Source: Saprospiraceae bacterium (GTDB lineage Bacteria > Bacteroidota > Bacteroidia > Chitinophagales > Saprospiraceae). From it: DNA of 34,571 nt. Position numbers and translations under genes: made by a program. Under the pieces are notes generated by a model that saw only the letters and a program-made list of their open reading frames with translations, searched no databases and had not been told where the DNA came from. Positions 23,863 to 34,571 of the stretch are shown in pieces. The DNA is taken from assembly GCA_018224445.1 (NCBI GenBank), contig JAGTVA010000114.1:1-34571 (forward strand). Direction: 5' to 3'. Every line of letters begins with the position of its first letter. The first letter of the stretch is position 1.

Positions 23863-24962
23863 TCTTCACGACCTCCACCCCAATTGATATCGAATGATAG
23901 CGAGAAGAGGTGGGACACCTCCACTGCTGAAACTTGCCCCAGATTACCCAGTGCATAATCAATCCTGACACTTCCAATTTTTAGTCCTATACCAAAATTG
24001 GGTTGTGCTGTCCAAACTTCAGAATTTCCATTAATTTCTTCCAGGGCTTTTTGAAAATTATAAACTCCTGCCCGGAGGTAAACCAACTCATTGTACCCCA
24101 CTTCAAACCCAATCCTCGGGTCCAGGCTCACCGTTTCCGAGCTCACCAATGTATTTCGCTTTCCATCTGTAGTGAAATGAAAGTCAGTGGCCAAAAGAAA
24201 AGAAAAATCCTCGCTTATATTTCCGGAATAGGCAATGCCTAAAATTAATTGAGGTAGAGCTATCTCGGTTGAGTTTTCCGGTACTGTATTGTTGGTCTGC
24301 TCCAAAATGGCTTTTTCCTCCTCAGAAAAAGAAAACGACCAACTGTTATAGGTAGTCGTAACATCTCTGGCCATCAGGCCAAATCTCCATCGCTCTGTTC
24401 GAAAGGTAGCCCCGAGGTCCAATCCAACGCCCCAGGCATTTGCGAACTTTCCAGCCGATCGGTGAATAATTTTGATATTACCCCCCACGCCAAATCGCTC
24501 GTCGTTTAATTTCCTTCCATAGGATATCAAACCGGCGTAATCGCCCACTGAAAATCGCTCTATCCGATTGTAATCCACACTGCCATCCGGGGCGTATAGC
24601 CTCAGTGTATTTTGAATCTGGTCTACCCCCAACCTAATGATACTCAAGGCTCCGTAACTGTCTGTAGTGGAATTTAATTTTTTACCAATGGACAGGTAAT
24701 CGTAATTTACAATGCCCCCAAACCACTCGGCGTGCATGGCTGAAACCTGGAAAGTAGAACTGTTGAAAGCCAGCCCTCCTGTATTCCAATAAGCTGCGGA
24801 ATTGTCGCTTACATGCCCGGCCATCGCTCCACCCATTCCGTGGGAACGCGCCCCCACTCCGATATTCAAAAACTCGTTGACAAATTTTGGAGTTTGTCCT
24901 CGCGCATCGGTGTACATTAATAGACTGATAAAAATAATTAAGGAAGTGAGTCGATAGATCAT
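23856..24962 (-). CDS. PorV/PorQ-family outer-membrane protein (PorV2-like, type IX sorting)
   Basis: The 368-residue product has a signal peptide (about 1-22, ending DARGQ) followed by the FadL-like barrel signature of the PorV/PorQ family: FVNEFLNIGVGARSHGMGGAMAGHVSDNSAAYWNTGGLA. Alternating barrel strands run to the end. PorV carries or binds type IX cargo tails at the outer membrane; the family also includes PorV paralogues often named PorV2. Here the gene stands alone, away from a porU neighbour, so PorV2 rather than canonical PorV is the better guess. The ATG at 24962 gives the expected signal peptide. Confidence 0.83.
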   Translation of the reverse strand: MIYRLTSLIIFISLLMYTDARGQTPKFVNEFLNIGVGARSHGMGGAMAGHVSDNSAAYWNTGGLAFNSSTFQVSAMHAEWFGGIVNYDYLSIGKKLNSTTDSYGALSIIRLGVDQIQNTLRLYAPDGSVDYNRIERFSVGDYAGLISYGRKLNDERFGVGGNIKIIHRSAGKFANAWGVGLDLGATFRTERWRFGLMARDVTTTYNSWSFSFSEEEKAILEQTNNTVPENSTEIALPQLILGIAYSGNISEDFSFLLATDFHFTTDGKRNTLVSSETVSLDPRIGFEVGYNELVYLRAGVYNFQKALEEINGNSEVWTAQPNFGIGLKIGSVRIDYALGNLGQVSAVEVSHLFSLSFDINWGGGREDQ

Positions 24963-25263
24963 AGCTGGGTATGTATCGTTTATGGCAGATCAATTTTAAC
25001 AATCAAAAAACGAGCCTCTTCTAAAGTAAATTGTTTGTGTTAACGTATAATAATTTTTTGTTATATGTGTCTAGGCTTGTTCACACATTAGATTATAAAA
25101 TGGGACTTATCATAATTTCTTTTGTTACACATTGAAAAAACTCTGTACATAATCGGGCTAACATTAAACAATTGGGACTGAATTTTATTAAATCGTATTT
25201 ACGTGTCGTTAACGGGTGACCTCTGCTCCTCCTCTGGCGAGTCTAAAATGAAAAAAAGTAAAA
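24963..25263. other. Divergent AT-rich intergenic region
   Basis: This 301-bp gap lies between the PorV2-like gene (-) and bshC (+). It must hold both promoters, but I found no exact TAnnTTTG box on either strand and no strong hairpin. Confidence 0.35.
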
Positions 25264-26865
25264 ATGAATAAATTTAAAATCCCCTACGATGAAAACCTTC
25301 ACTTCTCAAAAAAGGATTTGTCTTATATCCAATTGGATGAGGGACTCAAGCCCTTTTATAAATACCCACCTGATTTAGATTCAGTTGAAAAGGTCATTTC
25401 CGATAAGACCAGAGAATATTCCCGAGAAAGACGCGAAGTTTTGGTGTCGGACCTTAGGAAACAATACCTGGATATGCCGAAAGATTCAGCAGCTGAAGAG
25501 CAACTGGATCTCTTGGAACAGGACCGCACTTTCACCGTTTGCACCGCCCATCAACCTTGTTTACTCACCGGGCCTCTGTACGTAATCTATAAGATATGCA
25601 GCACCCTGCGGCTCGCCGGGGAATTGAAACAGAAATATCCCAATTTCAATTTTGTTCCGGTATTTATTTCCGGAGGTGAAGATCACGACCTGGAGGAGAT
25701 CAATCACTTTTACCTGTACGGCAAAAAAATAGAATGGGATACCTCCCAGGAAGGATCCGTGGGGCGGATGTCCCTTGAGGGTATAGATGAAATCATCGGT
25801 CAGGTCAAAGAGTTTGCCGGAAATTCCAATTACGCTGCAGAGGCAGTTGATTTATTACTGGCCGCAAAATCAGGAACTAACAATTACGGGGCTTTTTTCA
25901 GGAGGCTCATTTCCCTAATTTTTAAAGAAAGTGGCTTATTGATCTTGAACATGGATCGTTTTCATCTCAAAAAGTCTGCCTCAGAAATTTTTAGAGAAGA
26001 CCTGGTGGACCAGACCTCCAAAAAATTAGTTACTCAAACCCAGGAAGAACTGCAGGATTTAGGATTTTCTATGCAGGCCTACGCGAGAAAAATCAATTTA
26101 TTCTATTTTCACGAAGGCCAAAGACTCCGTATCGAAAAAATCAACGATCAATATCAGCTGGTGGATACCTCCATCGTTTTTTCTGAATCTGAATTATTGA
26201 ATATACTTGAAAAGCACCCCGACAGATTCAGTCCCAATGTGGTATTAAGGCCCTTGTACCAGGAGTACATCCTGCCCAACCTCGCCTATGTGGGCGGCGG
26301 TGGAGAACTCGCTTATTGGATAGAAAGGAATTCGCAATTTGAGCATTTCGGAATCAACTTCCCCATGCTTATCAGGCGAAACTCCGTGTTTTGGATAGAC
26401 CATATCGGCACCAAAAATTTAAAACAATTGGAATTGAATGGGCCGGAAATATTCAAGGGCTTAGATCACGTAATCAACGATTACGTCCTGGAGGAAGCGG
26501 AAGAAGAGATTTCTCTATCCGAAGAAAAAAATGAATTAAACGATCTTTTTGAGCGGATCGAAAAGAAAGCTGCCAAGTTGGATCAATCCATTCTAAAAAC
26601 CATACGCGCCGAGGAGGTCAAACACTTAAAATCCATAGATCACCTGGAGCACAAATTACTCAAGGCCAAAAAGCAACAGCTCGAAATAAAAATAAACAAG
26701 ATCAAAAAAGTGCACGAGAAGCTTTTTCCAATGAACAAGCCCCAGGAACGGGTGGACAACTTTTTAATGTACTACTTTAGAATGGGACCGGAATGGATAT
26801 CGCTGTTGACAAACTCTCTCAATCCAATGGATAAGGAGGTATTGGTTTTTCAGGAGGAGGGTTGA
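25264..26865 (+). CDS. bshC: Bacillithiol biosynthesis cysteine-adding enzyme BshC
   Basis: BshC joins cysteine to glucosaminyl-malate in the last step of bacillithiol synthesis, the low-molecular-weight thiol used in place of glutathione in many Bacteroidota. The 533 residues are the family length. Recognisable stretches are CTAHQPCLLTGPLYVIYKI at 93-111 (canonical TGHQPGLFTGPLY), VPVFISGGEDHDLEEIN at 131-147, and the YVGGGGELAYWIERNSQFE segment near 345-363. A long charged coiled coil at about 430-495 is typical. Its end overlaps convergent accD by 16 bp. The presence of bshC implies bshA and bshB elsewhere in the genome. Confidence 0.94.
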   Translation: MNKFKIPYDENLHFSKKDLSYIQLDEGLKPFYKYPPDLDSVEKVISDKTREYSRERREVLVSDLRKQYLDMPKDSAAEEQLDLLEQDRTFTVCTAHQPCLLTGPLYVIYKICSTLRLAGELKQKYPNFNFVPVFISGGEDHDLEEINHFYLYGKKIEWDTSQEGSVGRMSLEGIDEIIGQVKEFAGNSNYAAEAVDLLLAAKSGTNNYGAFFRRLISLIFKESGLLILNMDRFHLKKSASEIFREDLVDQTSKKLVTQTQEELQDLGFSMQAYARKINLFYFHEGQRLRIEKINDQYQLVDTSIVFSESELLNILEKHPDRFSPNVVLRPLYQEYILPNLAYVGGGGELAYWIERNSQFEHFGINFPMLIRRNSVFWIDHIGTKNLKQLELNGPEIFKGLDHVINDYVLEEAEEEISLSEEKNELNDLFERIEKKAAKLDQSILKTIRAEEVKHLKSIDHLEHKLLKAKKQQLEIKINKIKKVHEKLFPMNKPQERVDNFLMYYFRMGPEWISLLTNSLNPMDKEVLVFQEEG

Positions 26866-27707
26866 ATGTGAAAAAGGTCGAGTAATTCTGTCAATTTGGC
26901 TTTGAGGTCTTTTCTGTCTACAATAAAGTCCAGGAAGCCATTGTCCATTAAAAATTCGGAGGTTTGGAAGCCTTCCGGCAAATCCTTCTTGATGGTTTCT
27001 TTGATTACCCTCGGCCCGGCAAATCCAATCAATGCCTTGGGTTCGGAAAAATTGACATCTCCCAACATCGCAAATGATGCGGTCACTCCCCCGGTGGTGG
27101 GATCGGTGAGAAAGGAGAAGTAGGGAATTCCCGCCTTGGCCAACAAGGTGAGTTTGGCCGATGTTTTGGCCATTTGCATAAGTGAAAAAGCGGATTCCAT
27201 CATCCGGGCTCCCCCGGATTTGGATATTATCATTAGGGGTTGTCGATGCTCGATGGCATAGTCGATGGCTCTGGATATTTTTTCGCCAACTACCGACCCC
27301 ATACTTCCACCAATGAAGCTGAAGTCCATAGCGGCTATTACTAATTTGTGCCCGTTGACTTCCCCGGTAGCCACAGCCATGGCGTCCTTTAAACCGGATT
27401 TGACCGCCGCTTCTTCCAGCCTTTGCTCGTAGGGCTTGATGTCTTTAAAGTTGAGAAAATCATAGGACACCAAATTGTCAAAAAGGGTCTCGTATTTGCC
27501 CTCTTCAAACAACAGGTCAAAATAGTCATGTGAACCTATGCGAACATGATAGTTACAGGCAGTACACTTGTAGTGATTTTCTCTCAATTCCTTTATGGTA
27601 CTGAGATGACTGCACGATTTGCACTTGTGCCACAAACCGTCCGGAGTCTCCTTTTTAAATTTGGTGGCGGTCTGTATACCGTCCTTTAGTCGTTTAAACC
27701 AACCCAT
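26850..27707 (-). CDS. accD: Acetyl-CoA carboxylase carboxyltransferase subunit beta
   Basis: AccD pairs with AccA to transfer the carboxyl group from carboxybiotin to acetyl-CoA, giving malonyl-CoA for fatty-acid synthesis. The 285 residues start with the AccD zinc ribbon, with C29, C32, C48 and C51 (CKSC and CTAC pairs). The crotonase-fold core follows, with AMDFSFIGGSMGSVVGEKI, ISKSGGARMMES and LTDPTTGGVTASFAMLGD, which bind acetyl-CoA. The ATG at 27707 fits the family N-terminus. The gene is transcribed alone and its 3' end overlaps bshC. Confidence 0.97.
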   Translation of the reverse strand: MGWFKRLKDGIQTATKFKKETPDGLWHKCKSCSHLSTIKELRENHYKCTACNYHVRIGSHDYFDLLFEEGKYETLFDNLVSYDFLNFKDIKPYEQRLEEAAVKSGLKDAMAVATGEVNGHKLVIAAMDFSFIGGSMGSVVGEKISRAIDYAIEHRQPLMIISKSGGARMMESAFSLMQMAKTSAKLTLLAKAGIPYFSFLTDPTTGGVTASFAMLGDVNFSEPKALIGFAGPRVIKETIKKDLPEGFQTSEFLMDNGFLDFIVDRKDLKAKLTELLDLFHIQPSS

Positions 27708-27806
27708 TCCTAACTTTTGATTTACAAGGTTTTTTTCAGAAACCGTTTAAATAATTTTAAAACTCAGTCACTGGCTTTAAACAGACGGATTAAATTCACG
27801 GGACTA

Positions 27807-27814
27807 CAAATGTA
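27807..27814 (-). promoter_or_regulatory. -7 box of accD (TACATTTG)
   Basis: On the minus strand TACATTTG (27814-27807) matches TAnnTTTG exactly, about 100 bp before the accD ATG. A TTTG lies at 27843-27840, giving a 25-bp spacer, somewhat longer than the usual ~20. The rest of the accD-yebC gap (27708-28059) is AT-rich with no gene. Confidence 0.4.
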
Positions 27815-28024
27815 CGCAATACCTCAAAAATAAATAAATCAAAAAATAAATAAAAATAAAATTAGATGTGTTGATGGTTTAAAATCAATACGTACAATCT
27901 TTAAGCGTGAGTAATTTATTTTAATTACTTATTCCGTTGAGCTTTTAACTCATAATAATAGCTAAATTCAATACCCCTTTTGAATCCTTATAAAATGGGA
28001 TTTTATTTATGACAATTGAATTTG

Positions 28025-28032
28025 TATCTTTG
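28025..28032 (+). promoter_or_regulatory. -7 box of yebC (TATCTTTG)
   Basis: TATCTTTG matches the Bacteroidota -7 consensus and lies 27 bp before the yebC ATG. A TTTT at 28001-28004 is at the -33 position (20-bp spacer) in place of the ideal TTTG. Confidence 0.5.
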
Positions 28033-28059
28033 TTTGCTGATTACTAAAAGTTAAATATC

Positions 28060-28812
28060 ATGGCAGGACATAATAAATGGTCGAAAATAAAGAGAAAAAA
28101 AGGGGCGGCAGATACCAAACGGTCCGCCGTTTTCTCAAGAATAATTAAGGAGATCAATATTGCTGTTAAAGAAGGAGGAAGCGACGATCCGGATTTTAAT
28201 CCGAGGCTGAGGTTGGCCCTGGCCAATGCCAAAGGGGCCAATATGCCCAAAGACAATATTGACCGCGCCATCAAAAAGGCAGTTGACAGCGGGAGCGAAG
28301 CCATTTTACAACCTACCTACGAGGGGTACGCTCCTGGAGGAGTGGCTGTTTATGTAGAGTGTGCCACAGATAATCTCAATAGGACCGTGGCCGCAGTGAG
28401 GGCTGTTTTTAATAAAAAGGGAGGCAGTCTCGCCACTTCGGGTTCCGTTGATTTTTTGTTTGAGCGAAAGGGAATTTTTGTGATCGAAAGCAATGCCGAG
28501 AAGGCCGATAAGCTTGAACTGGAATTGATTGACGGGGGAGCTGAAGACATTGAGGTGGACGACGAGAATGGGGAAATCACCATAACGGTGGATTTCGAAG
28601 ACTTTGGGAATATGCAAAAAAAATTGGAAGATCTGAACATCGAACCAAAAAGTGCAAACCTGGAGCGAATCCCACTCAATACGGTAGAACTGGAGGTGGC
28701 TGAAGCCAAAAAAGCCATTCAACTTATCGAGGCATTGGAAGACGAAGAAGATGTGCAGAATCTATTTCACAATTTGGAGATGACGGAAGAATTAGAGGCT
28801 GCACTGGAATAA
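28060..28812 (+). CDS. yebC: YebC/PmpR/TACO1-family regulatory protein
   Basis: YebC-family proteins act as DNA-binding regulators in some species and, in others, as ribosome-associated translation factors that relieve stalling; which applies here cannot be read from the sequence. The 250 residues carry the hallmark N-terminus MAGHNKWSKIKRKKGAADTKR, then FSRIIKEINIAVKEGG, PRLRLALANAKGANMPKDNIDRAIKKA and YEGYAPGGVAVYVECATDNLNRT. The C-terminal acidic region ends in ELEAALE. It is followed within a base or two by the terminator-like hairpin of the minus-strand sRNA candidate. Confidence 0.96.
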   Translation: MAGHNKWSKIKRKKGAADTKRSAVFSRIIKEINIAVKEGGSDDPDFNPRLRLALANAKGANMPKDNIDRAIKKAVDSGSEAILQPTYEGYAPGGVAVYVECATDNLNRTVAAVRAVFNKKGGSLATSGSVDFLFERKGIFVIESNAEKADKLELELIDGGAEDIEVDDENGEITITVDFEDFGNMQKKLEDLNIEPKSANLERIPLNTVELEVAEAKKAIQLIEALEDEEDVQNLFHNLEMTEELEAALE

Positions 28813-28843
28813 AAAAACCTCGTTGCCGAAGATGACAACGAGG
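28811..28843 (-). terminator. Intrinsic terminator of the sRNA candidate
   Basis: The stem CCTCGTTG/CAACGAGG (28818-28825 with 28836-28843) has a 10-base loop. On the minus strand it is followed by seven T. On the plus strand it follows the yebC stop but has no T tract after it, so it would terminate yebC poorly. Confidence 0.7.
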
Positions 28844-28903
28844 CCGAACACACTATGAGAACACCCTAAATTCTTTGAGTAAGATTACTATTAACTATCT
28901 TAC
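28811..28903 (-). ncRNA. Candidate small RNA between yebC and dnaG
   Basis: On the minus strand a strong promoter (28940-28908) is followed by about 93 nt with no open frame. A 7-bp hairpin GTAAGAT/ATCTTAC lies at 28903-28879 with an 11-base loop. A mostly unpaired stretch of ~35 nt follows (28878-28844). The RNA ends with an 8-bp GC-rich hairpin CCTCGTTG/CAACGAGG (28843-28818) directly followed by seven T (28817-28811), a textbook intrinsic terminator. Promoter, structured body and terminator all point the same way, while no minus-strand gene is present. It lies antisense to the yebC-dnaG intergenic transcript. I suspect it belongs to a conserved Bacteroidota RNA family but cannot verify this. 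Confidence 0.6.
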
Positions 28904-28907
28904 GATG

Positions 28908-28940
28908 CAAATATAACATAACTTAAAATTAACGTCCAAA
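28908..28940 (-). promoter_or_regulatory. Consensus -33/-7 promoter driving the sRNA candidate
   Basis: On the minus strand TTTG (28940-28937) and TATATTTG (28915-28908) match the Bacteroidota -33 and -7 boxes with a 21-bp spacer. The predicted start is about 28903, the first base of the 5' hairpin. The promoter overlaps the dnaG leader on the other strand, so the two may interfere. Confidence 0.6.
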
Positions 28941-28948
28941 TATATCCT

Positions 28949-30883
28949 ATGATTTCTTCAAAAAAAATTGATAAAATTTTTGACACTCTACAAATAGAGG
29001 AGATCATAGAGGATTTTGTAAGTCTAAAAAAAAGGGGGACCAACCTGCTTGGCCTCTGTCCCTTTCACAACGAAAAAACACCCTCCTTCACGGTATCGCC
29101 CTCCAAAGGGATCTTTAAGTGTTTCGGTTGTGGTAAAGGGGGCAACGCCATACACTTTCTCATGGAGCACGAAAATTTCACCTATCCGGAAGCGCTGAAG
29201 TACGCCGCTGATAAATACGGTATTACCATAGAAGAGGAAGTTTACAGCCCGGAGCAACAGGAGAAGGAAAAAGAACGAGCCAGCCTTTACATCGTGAATG
29301 AGTTTGCCAAAAAATTTTTCAAATCCCAATTACTCAAGACAGGAGAGGGCAAATCGGTTGGACTGGAGTATTTTGAAGGCAGAGGATACGATCTAGAATT
29401 GATAGAAAAGTTCGATCTCGGCTACGCACCCAGATCGGGAAACGCCTTAAAAAGTGCTGCACTGAGGGCCGGACACGAACTGGACCGCATCAAAGCCCTG
29501 GGTCTCGTATCCACCCGGGGAAATGATTTTTTTCGCGAACGGGTGATGTTTACCATTCACAACCTGAGTGGAAAACCCATTGCCTTTGCGGGTAGAATGT
29601 TGGGGGAGAACAAGAAAATGCCCAAGTATATCAATTCGCCCGAAACGGATATTTACAATAAAAGCGAAATACTTTACGGTATTTATCAGGCCAGGCAAGC
29701 CATACGCAAGGAGAACCACTGCCTGTTGGTGGAGGGTTATACGGATGTTATAAGTCTTCATAAATACGGTATAGAAAATGTGGTAGCTGTATCGGGCACC
29801 AGCTTGACTCCGGGCCAAACGAGATTGATCAAGAGGTTCACCCGACAGGCCACCCTTATTTTTGATGGAGACCCCGCCGGTATCAAAGCTGCTGACCGAA
29901 GCATCGACTTGTTGCTTGAACAAGAACTCAATGCCAAAGTGGTCATTCTGGATAGTGAAGACGATCCGGATTCCGCAGTAAAAAAAATGGGAAAGGATGG
30001 CTTTCTCGAATTCATTGAAAAAAATCAGCAGGATTTCCTGGAGTTTAAAATTTCTCATCTATACGACAAAGCTTCTGACGACCCCTTTGAAAAGTCTAAA
30101 GCCATAAAGGAAATAGTAAAAACACTCAGTCTTATCTCAGATCAACTGAGCAGGAGCTTATTTGTAACCCGGGCGGCTAATCTGCTCTCCATCCCTGAAG
30201 ACGTAATTATAGGGGAGGTGAATAAAGCCCTCAGGTCAAAAATGTGGGAGGCAAAAGGAAGGGGTAAAAGGGAAAGGGAAAAATCTGAACAGCGAGGAGA
30301 AATCAGTCCAAAGTCTCCCTCTGCCGGGCAATCCAAGGTCGGAACTCAGGATTATTTTCAGGAGGAAGCGCTCATTCAATTGTTGCTTAAATTTGGAAAT
30401 GAGACCCTCGAAAGTGGTGAATTGTTACATCAATACGTATTTGAATACCTAGAGGATGTTTACGACACCCTAAATGACCGGCTCGTTTTAAAAATGTTGA
30501 GTTTGATAAAAACTTCCCTGGAAAAAAACGGTAAAATCAACACCCATGACCTGATCAATACTACCGACAAGGATGTTTCGGAATTGGCGGTTCAACTCAT
30601 CTCTGAAGAATATGAATACAGCGAAAATTGGCAGAAACGCTGGAACATTGTCCTGCAGAATCAAAAAAGCCCTGAAGAAAACTACGAATTAGACGCGGAA
30701 CAGATACTGGTAACCCTCAAACTGCGAAAAGTAAGGCGAGTAATCAAGGAAGTAATACAGGGCCTGACCGATACCCCTGCCGATGGCAGTGAACAGACCA
30801 ATGAAAATCTTGAGGTCTATATGGAACTCAAAAATCTGGAGCAGAAATTAGCAAAAAAACTCAGAACGATCGTCTACGGATAG
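28949..30883 (+). CDS. dnaG: DNA primase
   Basis: DnaG synthesises RNA primers for leading- and lagging-strand replication. The 644 residues have the three expected parts. The CHC2 zinc finger uses C37, H40, C58 and C61 (CPFHNEKTPSFTVSP, FKCFGCGKGGN). The RNA polymerase core with the Toprim fold has EGYTDVISLHKYGIENVVAVSGTSL near 262-286 and FDGDPAGIKAADRSID near 310-325. The C-terminal region that contacts DnaB runs to the end and includes a charged low-complexity linker near 430-460. The ATG at 28949 gives the standard N-terminus. It converges on fba with 44 bp between the stops. Confidence 0.97.
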   Translation: MISSKKIDKIFDTLQIEEIIEDFVSLKKRGTNLLGLCPFHNEKTPSFTVSPSKGIFKCFGCGKGGNAIHFLMEHENFTYPEALKYAADKYGITIEEEVYSPEQQEKEKERASLYIVNEFAKKFFKSQLLKTGEGKSVGLEYFEGRGYDLELIEKFDLGYAPRSGNALKSAALRAGHELDRIKALGLVSTRGNDFFRERVMFTIHNLSGKPIAFAGRMLGENKKMPKYINSPETDIYNKSEILYGIYQARQAIRKENHCLLVEGYTDVISLHKYGIENVVAVSGTSLTPGQTRLIKRFTRQATLIFDGDPAGIKAADRSIDLLLEQELNAKVVILDSEDDPDSAVKKMGKDGFLEFIEKNQQDFLEFKISHLYDKASDDPFEKSKAIKEIVKTLSLISDQLSRSLFVTRAANLLSIPEDVIIGEVNKALRSKMWEAKGRGKREREKSEQRGEISPKSPSAGQSKVGTQDYFQEEALIQLLLKFGNETLESGELLHQYVFEYLEDVYDTLNDRLVLKMLSLIKTSLEKNGKINTHDLINTTDKDVSELAVQLISEEYEYSENWQKRWNIVLQNQKSPEENYELDAEQILVTLKLRKVRRVIKEVIQGLTDTPADGSEQTNENLEVYMELKNLEQKLAKKLRTIVYG

Positions 30884-30927
30884 GGGTAATCCTCTACCTA
30901 CCAACGATCGCATTCAAAAAAAACAGG

Positions 30928-32004
30928 CTAGGAATTGGTATTTACACAGTTCAAATCCTCGAAAGCCAATTTCAGTCTCTCTACAAATGATTCTTCGCCC
31001 TTTCTTAGCCAGACTCTGGGGTCGTAATTCTTTTTATTGGGTTTGTCTTCTCCTTCGGGATTGCCGATTTGACTCTGTAGGTAATCCTTTTTATCTGCGT
31101 AGTAATTTTTAACCCCGTCCCAGAAAGCCCATTGGAGGTCGGTATCTATATTCATCTTTATCGCTCCGTATTCAATGGCTTCCCTGATTTCCTCTCTGGA
31201 AGACCCCGAACCTCCGTGAAATACAAAATTCACCGGATGGGATGAAGTTTTAAATTTTTCAACTATATGGTCCTGAGAATTTTTTAGAATAATGGGTTTT
31301 AAACTCACATTTCCAGGCTTATATACGCCGTGAACATTCCCAAAAGCTGCCGCAATGGTAAATTTGTCGCTCACCTCCATCAGTTTTTCGTAGGCGTAGG
31401 CCACTTCTTCAGGTTGGGTGTATAATTTGGAGCTGTCGACCTCTGTATTGTCCACCCCGTCTTCTTCTCCCCCGGTAACTCCCAATTCGATCTCAAGGGT
31501 CATGCCAATTTTTGACATTCTTTTGAGGTACCTAACACAAGTTTCCACATTCTCCTCCAGCGGCTCTTCTGAGAGGTCTAGCATGTGACTGCTGTAAAGT
31601 GGGAAACCTCTCTTCCGATAGAACTCCTCTCCGGCGCCCAGCAATCCATCTACCCAGGGAATGAGCTTTCTCGCGCAGTGATCGGTGTGCAATACAACGG
31701 TAACCCCATAGGCCTCAGCCATGGTATGAATATGGGATGCTCCTGAAATACCGCCGTAAATGGCAGCCTTTTGATCTTTATTGTCCAATCCCTTGCCTGC
31801 AAAAAAGGTCGCGCCCCCATTGGAAAACTGTATGATGACCGGGCTGTTAACTTCCCGGGCCGTTTGCATTACCGAATTAATGGAATTGGTACCAATTACG
31901 TTGACAGCGGGTATCGCAAAATTGTTCTCATTGGCATAATTAAACAGGTCTGTAACTTCATCCCCGTGCAATACGCCAGCTCTGAATCTTTTCTTTTTGG
32001 ACAT
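30928..32004 (-). CDS. fbaA: Class II fructose-bisphosphate aldolase
   Basis: The enzyme cleaves fructose-1,6-bisphosphate to DHAP and glyceraldehyde-3-phosphate in glycolysis, and works in reverse in gluconeogenesis. The 358 residues are the length of class IIA (E. coli FbaA-like) enzymes. Zinc-site and catalytic residues are in HTDHC at 106-110. LEIELGVTGGEEDGVDN near 171-187 is the class IIA signature. The second zinc His lies in AAFGNVHGVYKPGNV, and FVFHGGSGSSREEI binds the phosphate. The sequence starts at an ATG at 32004. It lies 45 bp downstream of trxB on the same strand, so the two may share a transcript. Confidence 0.96.
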   Translation of the reverse strand: MSKKKRFRAGVLHGDEVTDLFNYANENNFAIPAVNVIGTNSINSVMQTAREVNSPVIIQFSNGGATFFAGKGLDNKDQKAAIYGGISGASHIHTMAEAYGVTVVLHTDHCARKLIPWVDGLLGAGEEFYRKRGFPLYSSHMLDLSEEPLEENVETCVRYLKRMSKIGMTLEIELGVTGGEEDGVDNTEVDSSKLYTQPEEVAYAYEKLMEVSDKFTIAAAFGNVHGVYKPGNVSLKPIILKNSQDHIVEKFKTSSHPVNFVFHGGSGSSREEIREAIEYGAIKMNIDTDLQWAFWDGVKNYYADKKDYLQSQIGNPEGEDKPNKKNYDPRVWLRKGEESFVERLKLAFEDLNCVNTNS

Positions 32005-32049
32005 AATTGATCATTTTTATTAAAAAAATCGTTTTATTCAGTCTTTATT

Positions 32050-32994
32050 TTAAATAATGCCGATGTCAGTGAGATAACGCTCCGCATCCAAAGCAGCCAT
32101 ACATCCCGTGCCCGCCGCAGTTACGGCTTGGCGGTAAATTTTATCTGCGGCATCTCCACTCACAAACACACCGTCGACATTGGTTTTGGTCGATTTTCCT
32201 TTGGTGATTAAATAATTGGTCTCATCCATTTCCAACCAATCTTTAAAAATGTCGGTATTGGGTTTGTGACCGATGGCCACAAAGAAACCACGAATGTCTA
32301 TTACATTCTTTTCACCGGTCTGATTATTAACTACCCTTACGCCGGTGACTTCTTCCTCACCTAAAATTTCCTCGGCCTCGGTGTGCCAGTGCATTTTAAT
32401 ATTGGGGGTTTTGAATACCCTTTCCTGCATGATTTTGGAGGCCCGCATTTCGTCTCTCCTCACCAGCAGGTGGACTTCAGGACAGAGTTTGGCCAGGTAT
32501 TGCGCCTCCTCTGCCGCTGTATCTCCCCCACCGACAACTGCTACTTTGGTGCCCTTGAAAAAGAATCCATCGCAAACCGCACAGGCCGAAACCCCCTTGT
32601 TCATAAATTTCTTTTCCGATTCAATTCCAAGCCATTTGGCACTTGCTCCTGTAGAAATAATAACAGAATGTGCGTGAATTTCCACCCCTCCTTCTGTCCA
32701 GGCCTTATGCACAGGACCCGTAAAATCAACTTTTACTACCGTGTCGTAATGTACCTGAGTGCCAAATCTTTCGGCTTGTTTTCTAAAGTCCTCCATCATT
32801 TCCGGCCCCTTGACTCCATCCGGATAACCGGGATAGTTTTCCACATCGGTGGTTATCATCAATTGCCCTCCCGGTTCCAATCCTGTGTAGAGCACCGGAT
32901 CCATATTGGCTCTGGCTGCATATATAGCAGCAGTATACCCTGCCGGCCCTGACCCTATAATCAGGGTTTTTAAAATTTCTTTGTCTTGACTCAT
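32050..32994 (-). CDS. trxB: Thioredoxin-disulfide reductase
   Basis: TrxB uses NADPH through FAD to reduce thioredoxin (trxA at 6858-7172). The 314 residues show the FAD-binding GSGPAG at 14-19, the redox pair C138-A-V-C141 followed by DG, the NADPH-binding VVGGGDTAAEEA near 153-164, and the C-terminal FAD-contacting VFVSGDAADKIYRQAVTAAGTGCMAALDAERYL. It is a standard low-molecular-weight bacterial enzyme. The ATG at 32994 is 232 bp from the end of aroK. A GTGA-N6-TCAC palindrome lies in that gap. Confidence 0.97.
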   Translation of the reverse strand: MSQDKEILKTLIIGSGPAGYTAAIYAARANMDPVLYTGLEPGGQLMITTDVENYPGYPDGVKGPEMMEDFRKQAERFGTQVHYDTVVKVDFTGPVHKAWTEGGVEIHAHSVIISTGASAKWLGIESEKKFMNKGVSACAVCDGFFFKGTKVAVVGGGDTAAEEAQYLAKLCPEVHLLVRRDEMRASKIMQERVFKTPNIKMHWHTEAEEILGEEEVTGVRVVNNQTGEKNVIDIRGFFVAIGHKPNTDIFKDWLEMDETNYLITKGKSTKTNVDGVFVSGDAADKIYRQAVTAAGTGCMAALDAERYLTDIGII

Positions 32995-33160
32995 TCTTTG
33001 AAAGTGGTTTTTTTAAAAAAAGAAAATTCACAACTCGGGTTAACGGTAAAAATAGAACGAATACCCGAAGGTTTCATTACAACCGCAATATTAAGAAAAA
33101 GCGGGCAAAATTCAGTGGAATGGGGAGTTAAATAAATAGCATTTCCAAATCTCTTAACCC

Positions 33161-33174
33161 GTGACTTATATCAC
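33161..33174. promoter_or_regulatory. CRP/FNR-like palindrome upstream of trxB
   Basis: GTGACTTATATCAC has the GTGA-N6-TCAC core, 8 of the 10 bases of the classical CRP half-site pair. It lies about 167 bp upstream of the trxB ATG. No strong -7 box was found between them; TAATATTG on the minus strand is one base from consensus. Regulation of trxB is inference. Confidence 0.3.
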
Positions 33175-33226
33175 TTGTCAATCAATTTATAAAAATTAAA
33201 AATCTGTGATTTCATCTGCATCCGGC

Positions 33227-33736
33227 CTAATACTCCACCTTATCTGAATTGAGTTTTTCGATGAGTAAATCGGTTTGATCCATTGCATCGTGGGTTATGT
33301 GAGCCCGCTGGTAGTGGTGCAATCGGTTTTCGTAAAGTTGGATTAACTCCTCGTCCTTCATTTTCTTGAGCAGGGGCCTTTGTATGATCGCGGGATCCTT
33401 TTTGAGCCTGTACAAAAACAACTCTTTAGAGATTTTCAAAAACACCACCGTTCCGTGCTCCAGCATGAAGTCCATATTGTCGCTAAAACAAGCGGTACCA
33501 CCACCGGTAGCCATGATAAATGGTGGCGTGAGTAAGGACCGCAACAACTTTCCCTCAATTTCGCGAAAATAATCCTCTCCCTGATTTTCAAAAATTTCTC
33601 CTATAGCACCGTAATTATTTGCAAGAATTTCATCGGTGTCGTAAAATCTCCATTTGAGCTCTTTAGACAATTGTCTTCCCAAAGTACTTTTCCCTGCGCC
33701 CATAAATCCTACCAAGTAAATCCTTTTTCTCCTCAT
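33227..33736 (-). CDS. aroK: Shikimate kinase
   Basis: Shikimate kinase phosphorylates shikimate at O3 in chorismate synthesis. From the ATG at 33736 the product is 169 residues, the family length. Walker A GFMGAGKSTLG is at 10-20, the shikimate-binding DTDE is near 34-37, and EGKLLRSLL, MATGGGTACF and the lid region with IIQRPLL follow. The frame extends upstream to a TTG at 33820, but the extra 28 residues (MQFYLFKKYLNN...) are not part of the family and overlap the divergent promoter of the DUF1573 gene. Confidence 0.94.
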   Translation of the reverse strand: MRRKRIYLVGFMGAGKSTLGRQLSKELKWRFYDTDEILANNYGAIGEIFENQGEDYFREIEGKLLRSLLTPPFIMATGGGTACFSDNMDFMLEHGTVVFLKISKELFLYRLKKDPAIIQRPLLKKMKDEELIQLYENRLHHYQRAHITHDAMDQTDLLIEKLNSDKVEY

Positions 33737-33745
33737 TTGTATATC

Positions 33746-33779
33746 TTTGTGATTGTATTGTTCGTTCAACTTACTTTTG
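33746..33779 (+). promoter_or_regulatory. -33/-7 promoter of the DUF1573-yajC unit
   Basis: TTTG at 33746-33749 and TACTTTTG at 33772-33779 match the Bacteroidota boxes with a 22-bp spacer. The start point near 33785 would leave a leader of about 75 nt before the ATG at 33860. Confidence 0.5.
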
Positions 33780-33859
33780 AAAATGTTATTTAAATACTTT
33801 TTAAATAAATAGAACTGCAAAAGTATTACAAATATTAAGCAAAACTAAATAAAAGTGAA

Positions 33860-34351
33860 ATGAGAATACCTTTATTAGTCACAATTCTTATCATTTTGAT
33901 TTCATTCATTATCGCCTGTCAGGTTGACGAACAAAAGAAGGTTGAATCCATCGAGGGTCCCTCCGCTTCTGAGCTTATTAGAAATCCCATGACACTCAGT
34001 GGTGATGCAGATACCACCAATATTCCAGTAATTTCTTTTGATCGGGAGGTCATTTATTTCGATACCATTCCGGAAGGAACCGTAATAGAAGAAACCTTTA
34101 AATTTACCAATACTGGAAAGCCCCCCTTGTGGATAACAGACGCCCGATCTACCTGCGGGTGCACAGTTCCGGATTACCCCAAAGAACCCATCCCTCCTGG
34201 TGAGGGAGGAGAAATTAAAGTCCGGTTTAATACGGCGGATAAATATTACCTTCAAGACCGACCAATTAGTATCTTTGCAAATACAATCCCGGGAAGATCT
34301 GTAGTGAGACTTCGAGGGTATGTTCAACCTGTAAACGAATCTGAAAATTAA
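33860..34351 (+). CDS. DUF1573 domain lipoprotein
   Basis: The 163-residue product has a lipoprotein signal peptide (MRIPLLVTILIILISFIIAC) with the lipobox Cys at position 20, so it is probably anchored to a membrane on the periplasmic side. The DUF1573 core starts near 60: ISFDREVIYFDTIPEGT, then FKFTNTGKPPLWITDARSTCGCTVPDYPKEPIPPGEGGEIKVRFNT. This immunoglobulin-like (MSP/ASH-type) fold has the hallmark CGCT motif. Function is unknown. The next gene, yajC, starts 10 bp after the stop, a linkage common in Bacteroidota that suggests a role near the Sec translocon. Confidence 0.9.
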   Translation: MRIPLLVTILIILISFIIACQVDEQKKVESIEGPSASELIRNPMTLSGDADTTNIPVISFDREVIYFDTIPEGTVIEETFKFTNTGKPPLWITDARSTCGCTVPDYPKEPIPPGEGGEIKVRFNTADKYYLQDRPISIFANTIPGRSVVRLRGYVQPVNESEN

Positions 34352-34361
34352 CCTATTAGCT

Positions 34362-34571
34362 ATGAATTTAATGTTTTTTCTCGAAGGGGGTGCCGGAGCC
34401 CTTATCGGCATGTGGCCGATAATTTTGATGTTTGTGGTAATTTATTTTTTTATGATCAGGCCTCAGGCCAAAAAAACCAAAGAACAAAATAATTTCATCA
34501 AGGGCCTGGAGAAGGGAGATGAAGTAGTGCTGTCCAGTGGAATTGCTGGTAAAATCACCAAATTAGAGGAC
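34362..34571 (+). CDS. yajC: Preprotein translocase subunit YajC (3' truncated)
   Basis: The first 70 codons are present and run off the window. A single membrane helix (GMWPIILMFVVIYFFMIRP) is followed by the strongly conserved RPQAKKTKEQ and FIKGLEKGDEVVLSSGIAGKI, the YajC signature. YajC is an inner-membrane accessory of SecDF-YajC. It starts at the ATG at 34362, 10 bp after the DUF1573 gene. Confidence 0.95.
   Translation, partial: MNLMFFLEGGAGALIGMWPIILMFVVIYFFMIRPQAKKTKEQNNFIKGLEKGDEVVLSSGIAGKITKLED

Follow-up and report, generated by a model that had tools for sequence, protein, structure and literature searches.

The Bacteroidota are not known to possess much of the established sRNA machinery, and few trans-acting small RNAs (sRNAs) of this phylum have been described from genera other than Bacteroides and Flavobacterium. 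The Qrr sRNAs of Vibrio, in the Gammaproteobacteria, exist as several near-identical RNAs per genome that share an unpaired block, depend on Hfq and are transcribed from sigma-54 promoters, with one copy adjoining a conserved gene. Within the Bacteroidota the closest systems are GibS and FopS of Bacteroides thetaiotaomicron, which, in the parts of the reports considered here, combine a conserved single-stranded block with an intrinsic terminator, FopS being present in 14 copies (PMC11697453, PMC7366714). The same parts describe housekeeping promoters for FopS, its occurrence in a phage as well, its association with the RRM protein RbpB and its deposition in Rfam (PMC11697453, PMC7366714), and the conserved single-stranded part of GibS and FopS was shown there to pair with translation-initiation regions (PMC7366714, PMC11697453). 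Two further RNAs of the phylum are relevant, again to the extent of the passages considered: MasB, described as narrowly conserved (PMC10994844), and Rfp18 of Flavobacterium psychrophilum, a strongly structured, free-standing sRNA that is conserved beyond its species in Bacteroidota and pairs through its third stem-loop (PMC9723704).

The locus analyzed here lies in a 34,571-nt stretch of Saprospiraceae DNA (the window, whose positions are used throughout). On its minus strand, from 28940 to 28811, a promoter of the Bacteroidota kind (TTTG-N21-TATATTTG) leads into a short body, and a strong intrinsic terminator closes the unit, in the following arrangement:

28937..28940, minus strand: −33 box TTTG of a Bacteroidota sigma-ABfr-type promoter, as read from the sequence
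28908..28915, minus strand: −7 box TATATTTG, separated from TTTG by a 21-nt spacer
28879..28903, minus strand: 5' hairpin of 7 bp by folding, its sequence not conserved, with the predicted transcript start near 28903
28845..28871, minus strand: block kept in the genus, where five congeners match it at 26-27 of 27 bases
28849..28865, minus strand: invariant core of 17 nt, GGTGTTCTCATAGTGTG, for which little or no pairing is predicted, a proposed seed or protein-binding site
28816..28845, minus strand: terminator hairpin of 12 pairs, 6 of them G-C, 28-29 of 29 bases identical in the genus
28811..28817, minus strand: T7 run and predicted RNA 3' end, sharing bases with the end of the yebC stop codon, which lies on the opposite strand
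28949..30883, plus strand: dnaG (DNA primase; PF01807, PF08275, Toprim), the divergent neighbor conserved across the family
28060..28812, plus strand: yebC (TACO1/YebC; PF01709, PF20772), the convergent neighbor, which is not constant

An earlier note on this DNA had proposed a free-standing, independently terminated sRNA gene at this place, with both promoter boxes, a hairpin followed by T7 and no gene to explain them. Our analysis confirms the observation, as promoter, body and terminator are all present, and supports the proposal of an sRNA-like gene with its own promoter. The TTTG box, named in the note as well, is what we take to be the consensus of sigma-ABfr-type promoters. Among the open reading frames of at least 20 aa that overlap 28811-28945, none covers the whole core; these are only yebC and two minus-strand frames, one of 28 aa (28767-28853) that overlaps the terminator and five bases of the core's 3' edge, and one of 47 aa (28900-29043) that overlaps the promoter and the start of dnaG. 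No tRNA or tmRNA was found in the window analysis either. The segment 28811-28903 folds at −26.8 kcal/mol, and none of 200 dinucleotide shuffles was as stable (z −4.41); most of this stability is owed to the terminator, and the middle of the RNA, between the two hairpins, is weakly paired. Terminator-like sites number 18 over 24000-34571, vs 12.0 in shuffles, and a lone promoter and terminator in 34 kb could arise by chance.

Comparison within the genus defined the part of the locus that is kept. A 231-nt query matched 6 of the 8 genomes of the genus, including the own genome, which is 85.6% complete and holds one core copy. When this copy was aligned with those of five congeners, the core was identical at 17 of 17 positions, the terminator at 28-29 of 29 and the block 28845-28871 at 26-27 of 27, whereas the 5' hairpin region (28879-28903) matched at only 8-11 of 25 bases, which is near chance. 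This contrast between a near-invariant 3' part and a 5' hairpin near chance indicates that the functional unit is the last ~60 nt. The earlier note's ~93-nt unit is therefore conserved over ~28811-28871 and not over the remainder, so that the 5' hairpin has to be given up as a defining element; of the two hairpins and the middle segment, whose joint conservation in relatives the note had put forward as a check, the terminator and the middle are conserved and the 5' hairpin is not. The emphasis that it placed on an unpaired middle (28844-28878) was well directed, the invariant core falling inside that segment, and its interpretation as a whole is partly supported. Some 5' hairpin of different sequence was found in 3 of the 5 modeled genus copies (L009, L011 and L046), and such a hairpin may possibly serve to stabilize the 5' end. 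The segment 28811-~28903 on the minus strand is probably the gene for a ~93-nt intrinsically terminated sRNA, and a member of a multicopy family of the Saprospiraceae.

Searching for the core GGTGTTCTCATAGTGTG at up to one mismatch retrieved 167 of 398 Saprospiraceae genomes (~42%), 123 of the 275 good ones, and 55 of 112 genera. This recurrence, and the contrast in five congeners between drifting flanks and a near-invariant core and terminator, lift the locus above chance. The reversed pattern matched 9 of the 398 genomes, counted among the matches listed, and a handful of the single-mismatch core matches will therefore be chance. Up to six copies were found per genome (G294), often in tandem, and a 71-nt BLAST query matched 62 of 199 genomes. 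Outside the family, the core was seen in 0 of 292 genomes of a class sample of Bacteroidia at up to one mismatch (295 genomes, 3 of them in-family), and in 0 of 290 genomes of a phylum sample of Bacteroidota at zero mismatches (296 genomes, 6 of them in-family). The exact 19-mer occurred on 23 named contigs, 19 of which are labeled Saprospiraceae, Saprospirales or Lewinellaceae and the remaining four only Bacteroidetes, Bacteroidia or Bacteroidota; from these labels we infer that the GTDB family searched (f1) is Saprospiraceae.

The loci studied in detail, 125 in all, are those among the matches listed or fetched, and thus come from a subset of the 167 genomes. They yielded 169 distinct copies, each counted once per distinct 70-nt context with near-identical copies of close species merged; 138 have the exact core and 31 have one change, figures that are conditional on detection at no more than one mismatch. 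The most variable core position is the ninth, where C is replaced by T in 12 copies, by A in 3 and by G in 1 (n = 169). Counted from the core start, information is confined to about −13 to +27 and almost vanishes beyond (156 of the 169 copies). Eight loci (L063, L075, L090, L150, L153, L180, L184 and L186) were excluded from the position statistics and folds because they looked like chance matches or had no terminator. L063 held no copy; the copies of the others stayed in the promoter analysis and in the terminator count, where they account for 7 of the 9 failures. Two of them, L150 and L153 (G131:C537 and G026:C166), show a one-change core-like site with a long hairpin that has no T-run and with a downstream ATG; this site resembles a 5' UTR element and may be a chance match.

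An energy test finds a terminator behind the core in 156 of 165 copies, vs 67 of 673 positions drawn at random from these loci; with the stricter test applied first, the counts were 116 of 167 and, for the control, 67 of 1670. Of the 116 copies in which the strict test placed a hairpin, 104 have the core 0-8 nt before it. Terminator stems differ widely between genera, as expected if selection acts on the terminator and not on its letters, and many type-B copies share a CTGCC..GGCAG-like stem base. The core family is almost certainly a conserved terminated element. By the two bases before the core (AG for type A, TG or AA for type B, AT for type C) the 169 copies fall into 30 of type A, 118 of type B, 11 of type C and 10 others; type A, to which the window copy belongs, has TAG before the core, type B has NTG and is often in tandem, and type C has GAT. 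In one genus (8 copies) the predicted RNAs are 70-79 nt long, with an unstructured 5' portion of 36-41 nt followed by the terminator. Over 42 modeled transcripts the predicted unpaired probability of the core is moderate (mean 0.51, as against 0.56 for the part 5' of it).

The exact core was also found in seven contigs of a viral collection. Since a few exact 17-mers are expected by chance on a rough estimate, the hairpin context is what counts, and a hairpin lies directly behind the core in four contigs, which represent three distinct elements:

L208, 5729-5745: core in a phage-type contig with baseplate wedge, tail collar and helicase/primase families
L212, 11941-11957: core in a contig identical to L208 over the ~170 nt compared
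L210, 2131-2147: core in a 5.2-kb contig, where one of four proteins is a DNA methyltransferase and the other three have no match
L213, 4306-4322: core in a Mu-like contig with a transposase and a DNA transposition protein

No hairpin was seen behind the core in L207, L209 and L211, and these look like chance matches. In L208 the core comes just after the stop of a 117-aa open reading frame that adjoins a tail-fiber-like gene on the same strand. Collections of phage and plasmid records gave only weak matches (E 0.5-7).

Promoters were scored on the 165 of 169 copies that were usable, apart from 8 that belong to none of the three flank types. Of 30 type-A copies, 18 have TAnnTTTG between 15 and 150 nt ahead of the core, where shuffles gave 3.3; among 116 type-B copies there are 7, where shuffles gave 7.8. 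A sigma-54 score of at least 9/10 was reached by 11 of 11 type-C copies (0.1 in shuffles) and 13 of 116 type-B copies (0.3 in shuffles), and by none of the 30 of type A, the window copy having a best score of 6/10. These matches are not independent, as 8 of the 13 in type B come from genus g21 and 9 of the 11 in type C from genera g4 and g6; one, in L191, lies so near the core that transcription would begin almost within it, and is not a sensible promoter. By the test used, at least 96 of the 116 type-B copies carry neither promoter type, and some of them lie inside tandem arrays. Seven type-B loci (L084-L089 and L194) share an upstream block, GTTAAAAACWATAAC, at a distance from the core of 165 nt in L194 and 94-96 nt in the others; this block is possibly a regulator site or another promoter.

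In our judgment, the family very probably consists of transcribed sRNAs. An accessory element of 3' ends and terminators, acting in termination or RNA processing, or a repeat that works at the DNA level, would instead make it no regulatory RNA; the short distance between core and hairpin would fit this, as would the core placed directly after an open reading frame in L208 and the many type-B copies that have no recognized promoter. We nevertheless consider it very improbable: many copies of types A and C have their own upstream promoters, the neighboring genes in the window are on the other strand, a site for a general termination factor would be expected at many gene ends whereas the own genome has one copy, and the core does not have the dyad symmetry often expected of a DNA site.

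The position of the family in the genome is marked by its link with primase. Wherever dnaG was found (78 of the 125 loci), it is divergent from the core, except in one codirectional case (L031). The earlier note had placed the RNA between yebC and dnaG; dnaG holds as the constant partner, and yebC varies and is incidental. By gene names assigned by eye, the far-side gene is yebC in the own genus and in L015, L021, L022, L029, L050, L053 and L059, among the matches listed, and elsewhere it is one or another different gene. At the divergent loci the core lies 79-1369 nt from dnaG, with another open reading frame in between at the largest distance (L101), and the gap holds up to five copies (G201:C267); a simple mechanism based on overlap with the dnaG leader, from which the note derived a possible effect on primase expression, therefore cannot be general. 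The DNA retrieved for the other 47 loci contained no dnaG, and for 5 of these it extends under 900 nt on that side. Some of the 47 are dispersed extra copies with long flanks that lack dnaG on that side (7.6 kb in L040, 4.9 kb in L060).

In genomes without a core match dnaG was located in 41 of 41 cases (35 in the family and 6 in a sister family), and 30 of these loci (27 and 3, respectively) were inspected over 650 nt upstream, or less at contig ends. None of the 30 has an intact core. Upstream of dnaG, L135 has a weak core-like site with 5 mismatches and no terminator; in L122 (G015) a 5-nt insertion after GGTGTTCTCATA splits the core, and the terminator there is intact. The element is present or absent by lineage, and it is dispensable, as 29 of the 30 dnaG loci of non-carriers show nothing resembling an intact core and one has a split one.

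One could argue from the divergent orientation in 77 of 78 loci, and from an sRNA promoter that in the window comes as close as 9-41 nt to the ATG of dnaG on its upstream side, that the RNA is a cis partner of dnaG, its divergent transcription tuning primase through promoter interference or as antisense to the dnaG leader. The variable distance and the intervening frame in L101 speak against this, as do the dispersed copies that have no dnaG for several kb and the genomes that retain dnaG without a core, and plain vertical inheritance can explain the linkage. We also looked for cis-antisense pairing with dnaG itself and rejected it, as a CTATGA match at the dnaG start of the window is not kept in two congeners, where it shrinks to 4-5 bases. 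Overall, such a cis role at dnaG seems improbable.

The core may act in trans. By analogy with the GibS/FopS architecture (a conserved, largely unpaired block and a terminator, in several copies), it is most likely a shared seed, and we assign a probability of about 0.6 to the reading that the family is a set of base-pairing, trans-acting sRNAs. The core would then pair with several mRNAs, the terminator would protect the 3' end of the RNA, and copy number and promoter type would set dose and timing. For a seed, an invariant block of 17 nt is long, and this favors either many targets or a protein ligand.

Several candidate targets were searched for. An 18-nt search of the own genome at up to 3 mismatches returned only the locus itself and one site with 3 mismatches. 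Pairing to start codons by way of the AUG that the reverse complement contains was rejected, as CTATGAGAA matches the own genome 13 times, its own locus counted, and the reversed control does so 23 times; one of the 13 lies at the start of a long open reading frame (470 aa, beginning MRRGPQSL; L217), presumably rodA. Across 196 translation-initiation regions, called mechanically from 308 kb that include the window, general pairing was not clearly in excess: six percentiles were compared, for which 4 to 20 of 60 shuffled cores were as good, all six leaned slightly to stronger pairing, and several shuffles beat the best single duplex. Two of the top-scoring regions, which carry no statistical weight, belong to a TPR/CHAT protein and to a collagen/YadA-like protein with a Peptidase_S74 domain. 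Pairing to 23S rRNA was no better than shuffles (86 of 200) in the one genome used.

Two other roles were considered and set aside. A leader peptide is hinted at by the NTG that precedes GGT GTT CTC ATA GTG in most type-B copies, and by position 9, the most variable one, which is a third codon position in that frame; it was rejected, as third positions other than this one are nearly constant and, in type A, a TAG lies in frame directly ahead of the core. A tRNA or anticodon mimic was, on inspection by eye only, rejected or unsupported.

Because the target tests were negative, a protein ligand stays a serious rival. The core would in that case be a protein-binding site and the RNA a decoy or scaffold (6S- or CsrB-like) titrating a family-specific RNA-binding or replication protein, with multiple copies raising the number of sites. 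Identity over 17 nt amid freely changing surroundings, the presence of up to 6 copies, the lack of detectable complementary targets and a tolerant ninth position that looks like a non-contacted base are all consistent with this. The distribution of known RNA chaperones speaks against it. Hfq (PF17209) was found in 0 of 12 Saprospiraceae genomes, with the control search positive in 5 of 14. RRM_1 (PF00076) is present in 6 of the 12, the core carriers G201, G010 and G011 among them, and was found neither in the three own-genus genomes (G000, G005 and G007; 85.6, 98 and 99% complete) nor in the core carriers G251 and G128. RbpB-type proteins are thereby excluded as the ligand in these five genomes, and an RRM partner in the own genus is unlikely. 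Base-pairing sRNA families, too, typically have tandem copies that each end in a terminator. Taken together, we regard the decoy as unlikely; if the family does act by base pairing, neither Hfq nor an RRM protein would be needed in the own genus, and because neither was found in three genomes of that genus the family is a test case for sRNA action without chaperones.

The family offers a simple sequence handle, 17 nt and a terminator, with matches in ~42% of the sampled Saprospiraceae genomes. Its fixed place beside dnaG and its phage-type copies lead to specific, testable predictions, and these links with primase and phages are the interesting part. A bolder and rather doubtful reading is that of a Saprospiraceae-specific RNA regulon, in which a phage-borne 17-nt element, head-to-head with primase and free of Hfq and RRM proteins, has been rewired between housekeeping and sigma-54 promoters from genus to genus. 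Such a regulon, if true, may tie the state of growth or of replication to a set of targets, or to a protein, that host and phage have in common.

How does the family compare with what has been described? The covariance search against Rfam 15 that had been suggested for this locus returned no match at the gathering score in the window, and only a tRNA in 18 related loci. Below threshold there were six matches for the window region (E 0.23-8.5), the highest being trpB with 21.6 bits vs 59, and others in related loci, such as Thr_leader with 32 vs 55 bits in L182. The type-B copies of L035 and L020 are like MasB/BTnc201 (RF04177) in having a UG-rich unpaired stretch followed by a terminator; they score 34.8, 34.0 and 28.8 bits (L035) and 26.5 bits (L020) against a gathering score of 105, and the core is not matched base for base, which makes this a resemblance and not membership. 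The window region itself has no MasB/BTnc201 match at E ≤ 10. The literature searched does not contain the 16 nt of the core string in DNA, RNA or reverse-complement form, and we recognized no earlier description of the core family there.

Rfp18 is likewise a free-standing Bacteroidota sRNA conserved beyond one species, and is set apart, so far as the accessible description of it goes, by its anatomy and its genus, Flavobacterium; the core was not seen in the sampled non-Saprospiraceae Bacteroidia. The family is also set apart from the Hfq-dependent sRNAs, no Hfq having been found in any of the 12 genomes searched. With Qrr, by description, it shares multiple copies, a common block, sigma-54-like promoters in types C and B and a conserved neighbor gene; the −24/−12 promoter itself is missing from the window copy and all 30 copies of type A, and is found in 11 of 11 of type C and 13 of 116 of type B, in few genera.

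FopS and GibS, as portrayed in the accessible parts of their reports, are likewise multicopy RNAs of Bacteroidota with a conserved block, an intrinsic terminator and phage copies. The Saprospiraceae family differs in its taxon, in the dnaG linkage and tandem arrays, in the sigma-54-like promoters of two subtypes, and in the own-genus genomes, of which 0 of 3 have an RbpB-type RRM protein; it has no Rfam match at gathering. The family shows what characterizes multicopy, intrinsically terminated sRNAs, namely a partly unpaired block, then a terminator, in several copies, the own genome having one. It is therefore an sRNA-type family of a known kind, found neither in Rfam nor in the literature searched.
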